The position numbers were made by a program, and so were the translations under genes. Below, piece by piece: positions 17,415 through 24,437 of a stretch of DNA of 47,098 nt. Position 1 is the first letter of the stretch, and the number at the start of each line of letters is the position of its first letter. Source of the stretch: Deltaproteobacteria bacterium (GTDB lineage: Bacteria; Desulfobacterota; Desulfobulbia; Desulfobulbales; Desulfobulbaceae); contig JAJRQC010000014.1 of NCBI GenBank assembly GCA_024280455.1, positions 1-47,098 on the forward strand, in the 5' to 3' direction. The notes beneath the pieces were generated by a model. The model searched no databases. It saw nothing but the letters and a program-made list of their open reading frames with translations, and was not told the origin of the DNA.

Positions 17415-19295
17415 TTAAAATTCAATCTCAAAGCTGTACACACCCTCTTCCATACAGCTTTTCACCTTGTAGCCGGAGTGATTAAAAATAGCCTGCATCC
17501 TCCGATTATCCCGCAGAACTTCAGCAGTGAAACCGGCAATCCCGTTTCGTTTGGCAATGGTGATCAGGTGGCGGAACATCAAACTGCCCAGGCCTAGATT
17601 CTGCCAGCCGTCACGGATAACAAAGGCAACCTCGGCCTTGTTGTTCTGCTCGTTGAGATAATACCTGCCGACCGCAATGATATCTTCGCCATGGGCCTCG
17701 GGCACGGTCCCGACAATGGCCACGTCACGGCGATGATCAATGTAGACGGAATCCTGGATCTGCCGATGGGTGAACCGCTGCTGCTGGCTCATGAAGCGGT
17801 AATAGATAGTCTCCTGGGACAGGTCATAGAGCAGATCACGCATGTGCGGCTCATCGGTGGGCCTGATGGATCGAAAACTGACCCGCGTGCCGTTTTTCAA
17901 CAGATGGCTGGTGCGCATGAACTCTTCACCTGCAATCATGAGTCTGTCGCCGAATCCGGAGAGTTCCGGACGCAGATATTTATAATCCAGAGCCTCCTGA
18001 AAAAGCTGCTCCCGGAAATCAGGGTGGGCGATCGAAATCAGGGCCAGAACCCGTTCCTGAATCGACTTGCCATGCAGGTAGGCAATGCCGTATTCGGTGA
18101 CGATATAGTGGACGGTGCCCCTGGTTACGACTACCCCGGATCCCGGCTGCAAGGTGGTAACTATCCTCGAACGGGTCCCGTCACTGTTGGTTGAGGGCAT
18201 ACAGATAATGGCGCGGCCGTGCTCTGAAAAGGATGCACCGCGATTGAAATCCACCTGGCCGCCGATCCCTGAATAAAAACGGCCACCCACCGAATCGGAG
18301 CAGACCTGCCCGGTCAGATCGATCTCAAGCGCCATATTAATGGAAACCATCTTCTTCTGCTTGCCGATCACTGTGGGATTATTTACATATTCGGTCGAGC
18401 GAAAACAAAAAAGCGGATTATCATCGATATAGTCGTAGAGTTTTTTACTGCCCATACAGAAGCTGGTAGTGATTTTGCCCCGGTCAACGGTCTTGCGCGA
18501 ACCGTTGACCGCCCCGGACTCGATCAGGTCAATGATTGAATCCGAGATCATCTCGGTATGAATGCCAAGATTTTTTTTATTGTGGAGGAATTCCATCACC
18601 GCCTGGGGAACCCGGCCTACTCCAGGCACCCGGCCCAGGCCGAACTGGAGGGTTGCGCCATTTGGCACCAGCGAAGCCACTTCTGCGGCAATCTTTTCAC
18701 TGACCGGATGGAGCGAGTGAGAGTCGCGCTCAATGATCGGTTCATCCACCGGCACAAGAATATCCAGATCATAGATATCCATCAACGAGTTGCCATGGGT
18801 CCAGGGCATGTTCGGGTTGACTTCGGCAATGACCAGAGAGGCGTTTTCAGCCGCACTGCGGACAATATCAACCGAAATGCCGAGACTGACCTTGCCGCGG
18901 GAATCCGGCGGTGTAACCTGGATCAGGGCCACATCAAGGGGCAGCATACCGCTGTTGAGCAGGCCCGGCACATCGGACATCAGCACCGGCGTGTAATCGC
19001 CCATGCCCTCCTGAATCATATCCCGGACATTGGAACCGATATAAAACGAGTTGATAGTGAAACACTCGGCAAACCGCTTGTCGGCATAGGGCGCCTTGCC
19101 CTTGGTGATCAACTGCACCAGTTCAACATCAGCCAGAGATCCGGCCCGCTTGGTCATAGCGGCAACCAGCAGAGCAGGTTCGGCACAGCCGGTGCCGATA
19201 AAAACCCGCTGTCCAGCCTGTATATTTGAAATAGCCCGAGAAGGGGTGGCGATCATATCCTCATACTTCTGCTGCCAATCCTGATCATATTTCAT
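17415..19295 (-). CDS. acetyl-CoA hydrolase/transferase fused to a GNAT acetyltransferase domain
   Basis: 626 residues from ATG 19295 with AAGGTAG five bases upstream. Residues of about 1-450 are an acetyl-CoA hydrolase/4-hydroxybutyrate CoA-transferase-like domain: GQRVFIGTGCAEPALL, LQFGLGRVPGVGRVPQAV, the Glu-bearing FRSTEYVNNP, and GSGVVVTRGTVHYIVTEYGIAYLHGKS. Residues of about 475-626 are a GNAT domain (VSFRSIRPTDEPHMRDLLYDLS ... VAFVIRDGWQNLGLGSLMFRHL, with acetyl-CoA-binding Q/RxxGxG-like QNLGLGSL). It probably cycles CoA between acetate and acyl-CoA, and may acetylate a protein lysine. It is the last gene of the acu-like operon, separated from the synthetase by 64 bp with a strong hairpin. 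Confidence 0.9.
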   Translation of the reverse strand: MKYDQDWQQKYEDMIATPSRAISNIQAGQRVFIGTGCAEPALLVAAMTKRAGSLADVELVQLITKGKAPYADKRFAECFTINSFYIGSNVRDMIQEGMGDYTPVLMSDVPGLLNSGMLPLDVALIQVTPPDSRGKVSLGISVDIVRSAAENASLVIAEVNPNMPWTHGNSLMDIYDLDILVPVDEPIIERDSHSLHPVSEKIAAEVASLVPNGATLQFGLGRVPGVGRVPQAVMEFLHNKKNLGIHTEMISDSIIDLIESGAVNGSRKTVDRGKITTSFCMGSKKLYDYIDDNPLFCFRSTEYVNNPTVIGKQKKMVSINMALEIDLTGQVCSDSVGGRFYSGIGGQVDFNRGASFSEHGRAIICMPSTNSDGTRSRIVTTLQPGSGVVVTRGTVHYIVTEYGIAYLHGKSIQERVLALISIAHPDFREQLFQEALDYKYLRPELSGFGDRLMIAGEEFMRTSHLLKNGTRVSFRSIRPTDEPHMRDLLYDLSQETIYYRFMSQQQRFTHRQIQDSVYIDHRRDVAIVGTVPEAHGEDIIAVGRYYLNEQNNKAEVAFVIRDGWQNLGLGSLMFRHLITIAKRNGIAGFTAEVLRDNRRMQAIFNHSGYKVKSCMEEGVYSFEIEF

Positions 19296-19321
19296 TGAAC
19301 TACCTTAAATGATAGAATGCT

Positions 19322-19350
19322 CTTGTTTCCACCCACAGCGTGGAAACAAG
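19322..19350. other. strong hairpin between the two acetate genes
   Basis: CTTGTTTCCAC (19322-19332) pairs perfectly with GTGGAAACAAG (19340-19350), loop of 7 nt. No U-run follows on the minus strand, in the direction of the operon, so it is more likely an mRNA processing or stability element. On the plus strand it is followed by a T-run, but no plus-strand gene ends here. Confidence 0.55.
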
Positions 19351-19359
19351 AATTGATTT

Positions 19360-21468
19360 CTATTTTTTTTTGTTTCCCTTTGCGGCAAAGGTCATTCGCG
19401 CGTCGGCGACCACCGGTTCACTGCCGATTTCACCGACAATGAGCGGGTTAATATCCAACTCAACAATCTGCGGAAAATCAGTGGTCAACTGGCTGATCCG
19501 CTGCAGAGCCCCGGCAATGGCGTGGATATCAACTTCCTTGCTGCCGCGCTTGCCCTTGAGCATCTCATAAGAACGGGTGGATTGCAGCATCTGAATGGCC
19601 TCGTCCTCGGTGATGGGAGCCAGGTAAAAGGTTACATCCTTCATCACTTCAACAAAAATTCCGCCGAGGCCGAACATCAGCATGGGGCCGAACTGCGGGT
19701 CACGGGTCATGCCGAGGATAATCTCCAATCCGCTCTCAGCCATCTTCTCCACATAAATACCCTCAATAATCGCCTCAGGCGCATGTTTTTTAATGCGCAG
19801 GGTCATCAACTCAAAGGCGTCCTCCACCTCCTGGCTTGAGCCCAGATTCAGACGTACCCCGCCAAGATCGGTCTTATGAACAATATTGGGCGAGACAATC
19901 TTCATGGCCACCGGAAAACCGATGAACCGGGCCACTTCGCCGGCCTCCTCCGGAGTAACGGTCAAATGTCCCTGAAGTACATGAAAGCCATAGGCCTTGA
20001 GGATATCCTTGGCCTTGACCTCGCCGAGCTGCAGACGACCGGTCCGCTGACGCCTGGTAATAATCCGTTCCCCCCGCCTGCGGTTGACCGGGAAACGGGT
20101 GACCATCCGGGCCGGTCTCCTTCGCCATACCCCATATTGATACATGGCCTTAAGCGCCGCAACCGCCCGTTCCGGGGATTCATAGTCGGGCAGACCGGCG
20201 ACGGCCAGCTCCCGACGGCCGGGCAGCACATCACGTCCGCCCATAAACGAAGCAAGCACAGGTTTTGAGCCGTCAATGTTTTTTGCAATCGCCAAAGCTG
20301 TTTCAGCCGGCTGGGTCATGGCCTGGGGGGTGAGCAGAATCAAAATAGCATCCACATCCTGATCCTGCTGAGCGGCCTTGAGTGCATCAACATACCGCTC
20401 CGGATCAGCATCACCCAGCACATCAATCGGATTGGCCACCGAAGCCGCAGCCGGCAGTTTGGCCCGCAGCGCAGTGGTGATGTTTCGATCAAGCTCCACC
20501 ACCTGCATCCCCGCCTTTTCCACCGCATCCGCAGCCATGGTTCCCGGTCCACCGGCATTGGTGATGATAAGAATACGATCGCCCTTGGGCGGCGGCTGCA
20601 TGGACAGGGCGGTGGCATAGTCAAACAGGGCGTCAAAGGTATCGGCCCGGCAGACCCCTGATCGTTTAAAAGCAGCGCCATAGGCGGTTTCCGCCCCGGC
20701 AAGGACCCCGGTATGGCTGGCGGCCGCCTTTTGTCCGGCAGCGGTGGTTCCGGATTTAAGAATAATGACCGGTTTTTTATTGCTGGCCTCTTCGGCGGCT
20801 TTGATAAACTTGTCGCCGGAACTGATATCTTCAAGATAGCCGACAATGACGGTGGTGGACTCATCTTGTGCCAAAGCCAGCAAGAGATCGACTTCGGAGA
20901 TATCGGCCTTATTACCGATGGAAACGAGCTTGGAGAGGCCCATATTTCGTCCGGCAGCCATGTCAAGCATGGCCGTGCACAGGGCGCCGGATTGGGAAAA
21001 AACAGCAATTCCACCCGGACTCGGCATGCTGCCGGCAAAAGAGGCGTTCAACTTGTTTTCCGTATTGATCAGCCCCAGGCAGTTGGGGCCGAGTAATCGG
21101 GCACCGCCTCTGCTGCAGATCTCGGCCAGTTCAATCTCGATCCGGGCACCTTCTTCTCCGGTTTCTTTAAAACCGGCACTGATGACAACCACTGCTCCAG
21201 CCCCCTTGGCAACCGCGTCCCGGGCGGCATCAAGCACATACTTACCGGGAACCACTATAATCACCAGGTCGACTTTACCTTTGTAATCCCGCAGGGAGGA
21301 GTATACCTTGAGTCCGAGCAGTTCCCCGCCTGCCGTATTGACCGGAATTATTGCCCCCTCAAATCCGCAACTCACCAGATTATTGAGGATATCATAACCG
21401 ACCTTACCCGGTGTCCGGGAAGCTCCGATAACGGCAACTGATTCGGGCTCAAGTAATTTTTCCAGCAT
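19360..21468 (-). CDS. acyl-CoA synthetase, ADP-forming type (fused alpha/beta, ATP-grasp)
   Basis: 702 residues from ATG 21468 with GAGGG nearby. The order is: CoA-binding domain (SVAVIGASRTPGKVGYDIL, GPNCLGLIN), succinyl-CoA-ligase-like domains with the phosphorylatable His252 in AASHTGVLAG, then an ATP-grasp domain (from about residue 480; IVSPNIVHKTDLGGVRLNL and MLMFGLGGIFVEV). This fused form makes ATP and acetate (or another short acid) from acyl-CoA, ADP and phosphate, or runs in reverse. The substrate is not fixed by sequence. The gene begins 9 bp after the CBS-protein gene and precedes the CoA-transferase-GNAT gene, so it is the likely target of the acylation control encoded around it. 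Confidence 0.92.
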   Translation of the reverse strand: MLEKLLEPESVAVIGASRTPGKVGYDILNNLVSCGFEGAIIPVNTAGGELLGLKVYSSLRDYKGKVDLVIIVVPGKYVLDAARDAVAKGAGAVVVISAGFKETGEEGARIEIELAEICSRGGARLLGPNCLGLINTENKLNASFAGSMPSPGGIAVFSQSGALCTAMLDMAAGRNMGLSKLVSIGNKADISEVDLLLALAQDESTTVIVGYLEDISSGDKFIKAAEEASNKKPVIILKSGTTAAGQKAAASHTGVLAGAETAYGAAFKRSGVCRADTFDALFDYATALSMQPPPKGDRILIITNAGGPGTMAADAVEKAGMQVVELDRNITTALRAKLPAAASVANPIDVLGDADPERYVDALKAAQQDQDVDAILILLTPQAMTQPAETALAIAKNIDGSKPVLASFMGGRDVLPGRRELAVAGLPDYESPERAVAALKAMYQYGVWRRRPARMVTRFPVNRRRGERIITRRQRTGRLQLGEVKAKDILKAYGFHVLQGHLTVTPEEAGEVARFIGFPVAMKIVSPNIVHKTDLGGVRLNLGSSQEVEDAFELMTLRIKKHAPEAIIEGIYVEKMAESGLEIILGMTRDPQFGPMLMFGLGGIFVEVMKDVTFYLAPITEDEAIQMLQSTRSYEMLKGKRGSKEVDIHAIAGALQRISQLTTDFPQIVELDINPLIVGEIGSEPVVADARMTFAAKGNKKK

Positions 21469-21477
21469 AACAACCCT

Positions 21478-22137
21478 CTAGTCTAGATCCAGCGTTGGAA
21501 TATGAACGGTAAACCCCGCCTCTTCAACAATCCGGTGCACGGAACGGATGTTCATGGTGTTCATCCGCACATACAGCATGGCCGGTTCCTTCCCCTGCCC
21601 CTCCGTTCGGATTAATCGGGTAAACAGTATATTATGCTCTTCAAGCAGTTGAACAAGACGGCTTAAGCCCCCGGGATCGCCGTCATCCTCAATCGCCATG
21701 AGCACCGATCCAGTCTCACCCAGACCAAACAGTCGTCTATAGGCAGCCATCAGGTCGTTGAGCGAAAATATCCCCACAACCAGACCGTTGCCGTCAACAA
21801 CAGGAATCGCACCGATACTGCGGGTCTTAAAAAGAAGCAATGCATCGTCCAGGGTGGAAGCCGGCAGCAGGGTCACAAAATCCGTCGACATGATGGCCTG
21901 TACCTGAGTTCCATCAACCTGTTCAAGCACACGTTTTCGTTCCTCACCACTTAACATTGTGGAGGGGCCAGCAGACCTGAGATCGCGATCCGTCACCACA
22001 CCTATTAATTGGTTCTCCTTGTCGACCACCGGCAGATGTCTGAAATCTTTTTCATTCAGCAATTCTATTGCACTGCTGACCAGCATATCCGGCCGTATGG
22101 TTGTCGGTTTCCGGGTCATGTAATACTGTATAAACAT
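21478..22137 (-). CDS. CBS-domain protein, AcuB-like
   Basis: 219 residues from ATG 22137; the open frame extends to 22209, but that part overlaps the deacetylase gene and adds an unrelated 24 residues. Two CBS domains are visible: YYMTRKPTTIRPDMLVSSAI ... GVVTDRDLRSA and IMSTDFVTLLPASTLDDAL ... VGIFSLNDLMAAY. An ACT-like C-terminus follows (LVQLLEEHNILFTRLIRTEG ... ALYVRMNTMNIRSVHRIVEEAGF). CBS-CBS-ACT is the architecture of Bacillus AcuB, and CBS pairs commonly bind adenosine nucleotides. It lies between the AcuC-like deacetylase and the acyl-CoA synthetase, fitting a regulator that senses AMP/ATP. No Shine-Dalgarno is obvious. Confidence 0.82.
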   Translation of the reverse strand: MFIQYYMTRKPTTIRPDMLVSSAIELLNEKDFRHLPVVDKENQLIGVVTDRDLRSAGPSTMLSGEERKRVLEQVDGTQVQAIMSTDFVTLLPASTLDDALLLFKTRSIGAIPVVDGNGLVVGIFSLNDLMAAYRRLFGLGETGSVLMAIEDDGDPGGLSRLVQLLEEHNILFTRLIRTEGQGKEPAMLYVRMNTMNIRSVHRIVEEAGFTVHIPTLDLD

Positions 22138-22163
22138 AATAATCAGATATCGGGTTGCAAGTT

Positions 22164-23132
22164 TCAGGTGTCGGACTTTAACAGGCCACAGAGATAGGAT
22201 TCCACACAATCACCCAGGACCGGAAGGTGGTAACCGCCCTCCAGAATACTGATCAACCGGCCATTACACAATCGGTCACTCCAGACGGCAAGGCGACGGC
22301 CGATTTTCCCATACAGGCCGGTGGAATACCTGAGCCCGGACATGTCGTCAATCCTGTGACCATCAAATCCGGCCGCAATCACCATGGCCTCGGGCTTGAA
22401 TTGATTAAGCAGGGATAAGACCGGGCCGTCCAGTGCGGCCAGTACGGAATCATCATCACTGCCTGGAGAGAGCGGGAGATTCAGAACCGTTCCCTTTCCC
22501 GGCCCCGATCCATGCTCATTCGCCCAGCCGGTACCGGGATAACTGAAACTCGGATGCTCATGGATGGAGATATACAGGGTGTCTCCGTCTTCCTCAAAGG
22601 CGGTCTGAATACCGTTGCCGTGGTGGGCGTCAAAATCAAGCACGCAGATCCGCTCGCGGCCATGGGTCCGCTGCCAGTAACGGGCGGCAATTACGCAGTT
22701 GTTGAAAAAACAGAAACCATAGGGCCGGGCAGGCTCAGCATGATGACCGGGCGGGCGGGTGGCGCAGAAGAGAACTTTTTTAGAATCCTGCTCAACCAGA
22801 TCGACAGCTGTCAGTCCGACTCCGGCGGAAAGGACGGCAATGGTGTAGGATTCATAGCCGATCTGGTTGTCGGGATGATCAATATAGGTACGACCGGAGA
22901 GAACGGCCTCCTCAAAACGAAACAGCCAGGACTCAGAATGAAAGGCCATCAGCTCGGAACGACGGGCAGGCCGTGGCGAGACAATATCCACCCTGCCGAG
23001 AATCTGACTGCTGGAGAGCCGTGCGGCAATAACCTGCAGCCGCTCCGGAACTTCCGGGTGTTCACCGCCTCCGGTATCATGGAGCTGATATTGTGGATCG
23101 GTAACAACCGTGATTCGCCGCTGTACTGTCAT
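22164..23132 (-). CDS. acuC: histone deacetylase family protein, AcuC-like
   Basis: 322 residues from ATG 23132, chosen because GGAAGGG lies directly upstream; earlier ATGs (23177, 23162) are in the operator region. Class I/II HDAC-fold motifs: RPPGHHAEPARPYGFCFFNN with the charge-relay histidines, VLDFDAHHGNG with zinc ligands Asp and His, MVIAAGFDGHRIDD with the third zinc ligand Asp, and ISILEGGYHLPVLG. Zn-dependent removal of acyl groups from lysine is expected. By analogy to Bacillus AcuC it would reactivate an acylated synthetase. It is the first gene of the four-gene operon. Confidence 0.88.
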   Translation of the reverse strand: MTVQRRITVVTDPQYQLHDTGGGEHPEVPERLQVIAARLSSSQILGRVDIVSPRPARRSELMAFHSESWLFRFEEAVLSGRTYIDHPDNQIGYESYTIAVLSAGVGLTAVDLVEQDSKKVLFCATRPPGHHAEPARPYGFCFFNNCVIAARYWQRTHGRERICVLDFDAHHGNGIQTAFEEDGDTLYISIHEHPSFSYPGTGWANEHGSGPGKGTVLNLPLSPGSDDDSVLAALDGPVLSLLNQFKPEAMVIAAGFDGHRIDDMSGLRYSTGLYGKIGRRLAVWSDRLCNGRLISILEGGYHLPVLGDCVESYLCGLLKSDT

Positions 23133-23160
23133 TTCCCTTCCAGGTAAGGATACGTTTTGC

Positions 23161-23177
23161 ATGCAGAGTATCTGCAT
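23161..23177 (-). promoter_or_regulatory. palindrome, candidate operator of the acu-like operon
   Basis: ATGCAGA-GTA-TCTGCAT is a perfect 7-bp inverted repeat. It lies 3 bp downstream of the candidate -10, so it would cover the transcription start, a typical repressor site. Confidence 0.4.
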
Positions 23178-23255: not shown

Positions 23256-23264
23256 TGTTATAAT
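23256..23264 (+). promoter_or_regulatory. extended -10 promoter for the selenoprotein frame
   Basis: TGTTATAAT: a perfect TATAAT with an upstream TGn extension. The -35 (CTTTTA, 23236-23241) is weak, as extended -10 promoters allow. The start would be near 23271, leaving a 33-nt leader with GGAG at 23291-23294. Confidence 0.5.
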
Positions 23265-23303
23265 GCACAATATCCGATATTTTATTTAATGGAGAAACCG
23301 CAG

Positions 23304-23570
23304 ATGATGCAGAAAAACCAGCCCGTAACCTTCTACAAGTCAAGCCTCTGACCACGCTGCATGATGGTCGGCCGGGTGCTGAAAAAACTGCAGAAGGAGA
23401 TGGGAGACCTTAACGTGCGGGAAGTGGATATTCTCCGCCACCCGCGAACAGCCCTACGCGCAGGCATAACCATGATCCCGACCCTGGAACAGGGCGAAAG
23501 GCGACTGTCCGGGATCTTTTTAAATGAAGAAAAAATCAGGACCTTTCTCAAACAGGGTGAACAGGATTAA
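23304..23570 (+). CDS. thioredoxin-like selenoprotein, UGA-encoded Sec in a UxxC motif
   Basis: 88 codons from ATG 23304 (or 23307), with GGAG at 23291-23294 nine bases upstream. An in-frame TGA at 23349-23351 sits at residue 16 in SSL-U-PRC, exactly where a thioredoxin or glutaredoxin has the first Cys of CxxC. Downstream, the fold continues: VGRVLKKLQKEMGDLNVREVDI (helix then strand), then GITMIPTLEQG with the conserved cis-Pro of thioredoxins, and the last helix ending EEKIRTFLKQGEQD. Frame and thioredoxin pattern are unbroken across the TGA, and a stop-based call would miss the active site entirely. A 5-bp stem GACCA/TGGTC starts at the TGA itself; whether it acts as a SECIS element is uncertain. 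Selenoproteins of this kind are known in Desulfobacterota. The partner protein is unknown. Confidence 0.75.
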
Positions 23571-23610: not shown

Positions 23611-23898
23611 ACATACCTCTCCCTGGTCGGTGTCATGGTGGCCGTGGCCCTGATGCCGCCGCTGGTCACAGCGGGTCTGCTCTTCGGCAATAACCTGACG
23701 ACTCTGGGGCTCAAGGCTCTGGAACTGGCCGTTGCCAATGTAATCTGTATCAACCTGACCGGAATTGTAACCTTCAGCCTGCAGGGAATCCGCCCAGCCA
23801 CCTGGTGGAAAAATTCCAAGACCGGCAAGGCAAAACAGAGGGCCCTGGTTGTCTGGGTCGTACTCCTTGCCCTGCTGGCATTGATCGTATTGCGATAA
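23611..23898 (+). pseudogene. 3' remnant of a DUF389 membrane protein
   Basis: The frame resumes after a TGA (23608-23610) as TYLSLVGVMVAVALMPPLVT, then LLFGNNLTTLGLKALELAV, NVICINLTGIVTFSLQGIRP, and a final membrane helix WVVLLALLALIVL. This is the C-terminal half of DUF389 (TIGR00341-like) proteins, whose SLVGVMVAVALLPPLV stretch is highly conserved. The N-terminal domain and first membrane helices are missing, because the selenoprotein gene ends only 40 bp upstream. An ATG at 23635 could start an 87-residue peptide but has no Shine-Dalgarno. A deletion, or decay next to the MITE-like element at 23918, explains it. Confidence 0.7.
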
Positions 23899-23917
23899 AT
23901 CAGCACCCCTTGCGGCA

Positions 23918-24084
23918 CTAGTGTCGCGTCAACGATGAAATGGCGCAAAATTGCATAGGGCTTTTTTGTGCCTGCATCTTTGAGGATTGGGGCGCATAGT
24001 AGAACTATGTAACTCAAGCCTCAAAGATGCAGGCGCGGAAAAGAACAAACAAGATGCGTCAGGGCATCGTTGACGTGACACTAG
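23918..24084. mobile_element. MITE-like palindromic element, 167 bp, CTAG at both ends
   Basis: CTAGTGTCGCGTCAACGATG (23918-23937) is matched at 19 of 20 positions by the reverse complement of 24065-24084. A second, inner inverted repeat has perfect 16-bp arms, GCCTGCATCTTTGAGG and CCTCAAAGATGCAGGC (about 23971-24038). There is no reading frame. CTAG at both ends is either part of the terminal repeat or a 4-bp target duplication; the YTAR target of IS5-group elements would fit. The right end supplies the TAG stop of the PEGA-like gene. Confidence 0.78.
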
Positions 24085-24437
24085 GGCAGCGTATATTCCA
24101 ACACCTTTTCCGCCGTGATCTGAATTGTATCGGTCAGGACATCTTTACCATCTTTTGTAATGGTCAGGTTGTGGGTTCCAACCGGAACAAGAAGGGTAAA
24201 GGGCATCTTGCCCCGATACCGTTCTTTTTCCACCTGGTTTGCATCACAGGTGGACAGTTCAAAAGAAATAGTTTCGGCAACACATTCACCATCGATCTTG
24301 ACACAAACACCCTGCCGATCACCGATAAAGGTTATGCCGCCGAAATTACCCTCTGCAAGACAGTTGAGTGGAACCAGAAACAACAGGGCCGCAACAATCA
24401 CTATCCATCGACGATACTCAAACAATCTTTTTTTCAT
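24081..24437 (-). CDS. small secreted PEGA-like domain protein
   Basis: 118 residues from ATG 24437, set by AAGGAGG six bases upstream; the open frame continues to 24494 without a second Shine-Dalgarno. The signal peptide is MKKRLFEYRRWIVIVAALLF, then LVPLNCLAEG. The C-terminal half, from YRGKMPFTLLVPVGTHNLTI to the end, has the PEGA pattern (P-x-G-x-H-x-x-x-I). PEGA domains are beta-sandwich modules in surface proteins. The stop codon TAG (24083-24081) belongs to the end of the MITE-like element, so the original C-terminus may have been longer. Confidence 0.7.
   Translation of the reverse strand: MKKRLFEYRRWIVIVAALLFLVPLNCLAEGNFGGITFIGDRQGVCVKIDGECVAETISFELSTCDANQVEKERYRGKMPFTLLVPVGTHNLTITKDGKDVLTDTIQITAEKVLEYTLP

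Follow-up and report, generated by a model that had tools for sequence, protein, structure and literature searches.

Selenoproteins of the general kind treated here are well known. Sec-thioredoxin (PF00085) and Sec-glutaredoxin (PF00462), both with a UxxC motif, are tabulated in the accessible portions of two sources (PMC13188914, PMC9312934), the first being a selenoprotein survey that covers 119 families. The rules for a bSECIS hairpin in the accessible text of the same survey are a loop of 3–9 nt with a G at one of its first two nucleotides, an upper stem of 4–16 bp, a spacing of 16–37 nt, and an MFE at or below −7.5 (PMC13188914). SaoT (NF040730), HUIPC (NF047660), and UXX-star (NF041211, NF041212, NF047338) are likewise small thioredoxin- or glutaredoxin-like selenoproteins. 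Desulfotalea psychrophila is a member of the Desulfobulbales. In its accessible part, the 2006 selenoprotein list for this species names neither a thioredoxin nor a glutaredoxin (PMC1794560), and deep-Sep, in its accessible part, credits Desulfolithobacter dissulfuricans GF1 with 22 known selenoprotein genes and no new ones (PMC12013277).

The gene analyzed here lies in a window of 47,098 nucleotides (the whole stretch of DNA under analysis). With TGA read as U, it was translated into 88 residues with the N-terminus MMQKNQPVTFYKSSL-U-PRC, the only internal TGA being U16 and the stop codon TAA (Table 1). The structure predicted by AlphaFold2 was a thioredoxin fold (pLDDT 85.2, pTM 0.76), and thioredoxins were the PDB structures closest to it, with an E of 5.2e-7 at best and a TM of 0.81 by query length. 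The protein passed the gathering cut-off of PF00085 (Thioredoxin; 26.1 vs 23.5 bits), and the name "thioredoxin-like", given to it in an earlier sequence-only reading, was right at the level of fold and Pfam. Like Sec-thioredoxin, it combines this fold and domain with a UxxC motif that begins with Sec; it appears to differ in its length of 88 aa and its UPRC motif. Classical thioredoxins have GP between the two Cys. With Sec-glutaredoxin it shares the small size, Sec at the first position, and a thioredoxin-type fold, but it falls below the PF00462 (Glutaredoxin) cut-off (19.6 vs 22.9 bits).

No NCBIfam model reached its cut-off for the window protein, including TIGR01068 (thioredoxin equivalog; 25.1 vs 96.8 bits) and TIGR00411 (MJ0307-family thioredoxin; 34.4 vs 92.75 bits). 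The latter was its best NCBIfam profile, and 1fo5, which we take to be an MJ0307-family thioredoxin, was its best PDB sequence match (82–85 positions); 1fo5 has Cys where the window protein has Sec. The SaoT, HUIPC, and UXX-star models were absent among its 8 NCBIfam matches (E up to 1), and the UXX-star models gave weak matches to 3 to 14 of 68 relatives (best E 1.5e-4). By the domain-based naming in the accessible portion of the survey, the protein would fall under thioredoxin (PMC13188914).

Reading frame, start signals, and relatives

The ordinary ORF list contained only 23361–23570 (69 aa, ATG start), from which the active site is lost, as the sequence-only reading had expected of gene callers. 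That reading had also placed UGA at the first position of UxxC, followed by an intact second Cys and cis-Pro segment, and both points were borne out by the relatives described below; the role of P59 as cis-Pro is presumed from the thioredoxin fold. Of the start signals, the Shine-Dalgarno-like GGAG and the extended −10-like TGTTATAAT are present, but no full sigma-70 promoter was found by a consensus scan. A second in-frame ATG, which could be an alternative start, is at 23289.

Table 1. Features of the selenoprotein gene and its surroundings, in positions of the window
Feature	Position	Strand	Basis
Divergent histone-deacetylase-domain gene	22164–23177	−	PF00850
Extended −10-like TGTTATAAT, exact, without recognised −35	23256–23264	+	Read in sequence
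Shine-Dalgarno-like GGAG, 9 nt before ATG	23291–23294	+	Read in sequence
Sec-containing thioredoxin-like protein gene, 88 aa	23304–23570	+	Translation, relatives, alignment, predicted fold
Sec16 codon TGA, start of UPRC motif	23349–23351	+	TGA/Cys exchange among relatives
Cys19 codon, second motif position	23358–23360	+	109 relatives with Cys and 1 with Ser, of 110
Upper stem-loop of bSECIS type, 5 bp stem TCGGC/GCTGA	23368–23382	+	bSECIS rules
Presumed cis-Pro codon, P59 of Ile-Pro-Thr segment	23478–23480	+	Invariant in 68-row alignment

In a search across the class, 160 of the 257 genomes held a relative. From the 150 matches listed, 110 relatives were extracted, all from the same class. The alignment of Cys homologues at the TGA site, called for as a check in the sequence-only reading, gave Cys or Sec in all 110: the codon was TGA in 60 and a Cys codon in 50 (TGC in 29, TGT in 21), and all 50 Cys relatives were open throughout. 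Positions U/C16, P17, R18, C19, L26, and P59 were invariant in an alignment of 68 rows. The sole relative with Ser for the second motif Cys (L094, UPRS) keeps the TGA. One genome (G083; C345 and C193) holds a Cys form together with a match of the same subfamily with an inner TGA.

The relative in Desulfobulbus sp. HyVt-436 was 77% identical and also had TGA. A pattern scan of the genomes of 84,980 species, which detects close relatives only, gave 1 locus. Two phylum searches of 395 genomes each were run, by profile (E up to 1e-6) and by protein (E up to 1e-3); clear matches came from 7 of the 395 genomes, all within the class, and outside the class only weak matches without TGA were obtained (5 by profile, 36 by protein).

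The stretch before the TGA was conserved as well. Over all Sec pairs, variation at codons −9 to −1 was 0.31, 0.21, and 0.56 (bases 1, 2, and 3), compared with about 0.72 for every base 5' of the ATG. For the 6 loci of the window's own genus, the corresponding values were 0.26, 0.14, and 0.23 vs 0.53–0.61 upstream; the pre-TGA stretch is conserved there too, but variation does not peak at the third base. These values bear on a rival reading in which the TGA is a normal stop codon or arose by nonsense mutation, and in which the true protein begins at 23361 and so lacks the active site. Speaking for it are two ATG codons after the TGA and the open shorter frame. Against it stand the 60 of the 110 relatives that share the TGA at this codon, the open frames of the 50 Cys relatives, the conservation before the TGA and not 5' of the ATG, and the preference for a hairpin in TGA genes (see below). 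The shorter gene was rejected on the relatives, the pre-TGA conservation, and the hairpin preference, and we consider it very improbable.

The hairpin after the TGA and the selenocysteine machinery

In the SECIS check proposed in the sequence-only reading, a hairpin that follows the bSECIS rules was found after the TGA, and no Rfam family reached its threshold at the site. Its loop, CGGGT (23373–23377), has G at loop position 2 and lies 21 nt after the TGA. The upper hairpin alone was weak, at −3.9 kcal/mol (z −1.6, p 0.10 vs synonymous recodings), and nt 4–48 after the TGA gave an MFE of −12.1 (z −1.6, p 0.055). The hairpin fits the published rules, the −7.5 limit being reached only with the lower helix. 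Nothing in the window scored over the Rfam gathering score, and the matches at the TGA site were chance-like.

When the best rule-abiding hairpin of each gene was compared with synonymous recodings, the mean z was −1.71 in the 60 Sec genes and −0.11 in the 50 Cys genes (p 2e-10 for the difference, the sequences not being independent). A p of 0.1 or less was obtained for 67% of Sec genes vs 12% of Cys genes, and no rule-abiding hairpin was present in 1 Sec gene vs 27 Cys genes. Loop spacing in the 60 Sec genes was 21 nt in 25 and 28 nt in 26. A consensus fold over all 60 gave no structure; after a split into three groups, a hairpin appeared at −2.9, −5.9, and −10.0 kcal/mol and was weak in the window's own family.

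Covariation gives the hairpin at most partial support, with structures derived from the same sequences on which they were scored. Among the 31 Sec genes of the window's group, two-sided changes were counted in 23 cells vs 7.5 after shuffling (0/500), and the 50 Cys genes on this structure gave 35 vs 36.1. The stricter counts for the 31 Sec genes were not significant, either for pairs changed on both sides (5 vs 3.4, 28/500) or for pair types (12 vs 11.5, 242/500), and the outer pairs 18–36 and 19–35 were broken in about half of the rows. Pairing was complete in every cell for the 27 distinct Sec genes of the second group, and 10 two-sided cells were counted vs 2.8 shuffled, a number above that of any of the 500 shuffles; neither stricter count was significant (106/500 for both). 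A small signal persisted in the Cys set, which here includes the two genes L081 and L082 discussed below: it was 62.8% paired on the second structure vs 59.6 shuffled (3/500), with a covariation score at 2/500. Between the window and its nearest relative (L027), 0 of 11 codons (2–12 after the TGA) had changed vs 30 of 60 later codons (Fisher p 0.0017, for a stretch picked after looking).

The assembly of the window's genome (4.15 Mb) is 99.85% complete with 4.83% contamination. All of selA, selB, selC, and selD, on which the sequence-only reading had made a Sec protein depend, were found in it: selB (372 bits) and tRNA-Sec (72 bits, anticodon TCA) over their cut-offs, selA at 635 bits, and selD in three copies (L018, L019, and L020–L021). 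Sec decoding appears to be in use in this genome, since the reading frames of two of its selD genes include a TGA close to the N-terminus, within GUAAK; the third is without TGA. The presence of selB does not separate Sec from Cys forms, because it is common to most genomes of both (over the cut-off in 54 of 60 Sec genomes vs 45 of 50 Cys genomes). The Sec genomes without selB over the cut-off were G105 (in pieces), G111, G115, G172, G176, and G224, of which G115 and G176 are 98–99% complete.

This machinery also argues against a genome-wide code in which UGA, in the absence of Sec decoding, specifies some other amino acid (Trp or Cys, for example); nothing was found in favour of such a code. 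Under such a code, TGA would be both Sec and stop within one gene in the 33 of 60 Sec relatives that end at TGA (a TGA in the last ~20 codons being taken as the stop), and the window's scanned neighbours read normally in table 11. Reassignment was rejected on the Sec machinery, the TGA stops, and the normal neighbour genes, and we give it practically no credence.

The preferred reading of the TGA as a Sec codon draws on what was computed, namely the conserved frame across the TGA, the exchange of Sec and Cys, the hairpin preference, the Sec machinery, and the predicted fold. On this basis, the gene very likely encodes a small cytoplasmic thioredoxin-fold selenoprotein that receives Sec16 through SelB and the hairpin and acts as a selenol-disulfide oxidoreductase. 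In the proposed mechanism, SelB and Sec-tRNA(UCA) would recognise the hairpin just 3' of the UGA and selenocysteine would be inserted at position 16. The U16 selenol would attack a target disulfide, and Cys19 would resolve the mixed selenenyl-sulfide. We infer these catalytic roles, the insertion of Sec itself, the location in the cytoplasm, and the reduction of client proteins; a selenol-disulfide oxidoreductase is the simplest function and the likely one.

Exchange of selenocysteine and cysteine

In a tree built with the site masked, at least 13 Sec–Cys changes were needed (shuffled mean 36.5); well supported branches force only 3, since an alignment of 85 columns has little resolving power. 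Among the Sec genes nest two with Cys, L081 and L082, whose nearest Sec rows are 93% and 92% identical, respectively. Within 45 nt counted from the site, TGC for TGA is the sole difference between each of the two and its nearest Sec neighbour, and other Sec neighbours show one further difference within this stretch; the overall differences from the nearest Sec neighbour are 24 of 243 (L081) and 21 of 249 (L082). The hairpin is kept in both genes, and selB is present in both genomes. The Sec neighbour of L082 (L083) belongs to G176, one of the genomes without selB over the cut-off. We read L081 and L082 as recent replacements, probably of Sec by Cys.

Gene neighbourhood and catalogue status

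On the minus strand, 17415–23177 holds genes for an acetyl-CoA hydrolase with a GNAT domain, an acyl-CoA ligase-like, a CBS-domain, and a histone-deacetylase-like protein, the last of which is presumably AcuC-like. A short ORF at 23635–23898 (+), just after the selenoprotein gene, matches only the last 41 positions of PF04087 (DUF389) and is probably a 5'-truncated remnant. It is followed at 23912–24090 by a nested pair of imperfect inverted repeats with 40- and 36-nt arms (80–81% complementary), perhaps a small palindromic or mobile element.

Neighbouring genes might point to a special task, linked either to the acetyl-CoA/deacetylase cluster or to a Na/Ca-exchanger-like protein, in place of general disulfide reduction. 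Raw counts, uncorrected for kinship, lend this some weight: a divergent histone-deacetylase-like gene adjoins 40 of 60 Sec and 7 of 50 Cys loci, and an exchanger-like gene (PF01699) lies downstream on the same strand at 33 loci (19 Sec, 14 Cys). At 11 of the 13 junctions checked among these 33 (e.g. L057, L098, L112), the inferred start of the exchanger-like gene overlaps the stop of the thioredoxin-like gene. The settings are several, however. A different upstream gene, which we take by likeness to be a class I adenylate cyclase, was found at 26 loci (10 Sec, 16 Cys; again uncorrected for kinship), none of five marker genes was present in flanks of up to ~1.5 kb at 9 Sec and 12 Cys loci, and next to the gene in the window no relative of the exchanger was found. 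The neighbourhood yields no single partner, and we regard a neighbour-linked task as unlikely, general disulfide reduction being preferred.

No description of a UPRC thioredoxin-like selenoprotein was found in a search mainly of open literature without supplements, by which its absence is weakly supported; the protein may be on record already under a generic Sec-thioredoxin name. A genome in one contig (G069) carries a Sec form (L033). If this genome is D. dissulfuricans GF1, deep-Sep, by the accessible part of its account, either counted L033 under a known name or missed it (PMC12013277). We put at about even the chance that the UPRC seleno-thioredoxins are a separate, uncatalogued subfamily of one class (Desulfobulbia, by inference), with repeated Sec/Cys replacement, two recent cases retaining an intact "fossil" SECIS, and a loop at 21 or 28 nt depending on lineage.

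The gene is an example of one that ordinary ORF callers start downstream of the active site. Its family offers a natural data set for the exchange of Sec and Cys at one active site, with Sec and Cys forms that can be 92–93% identical.
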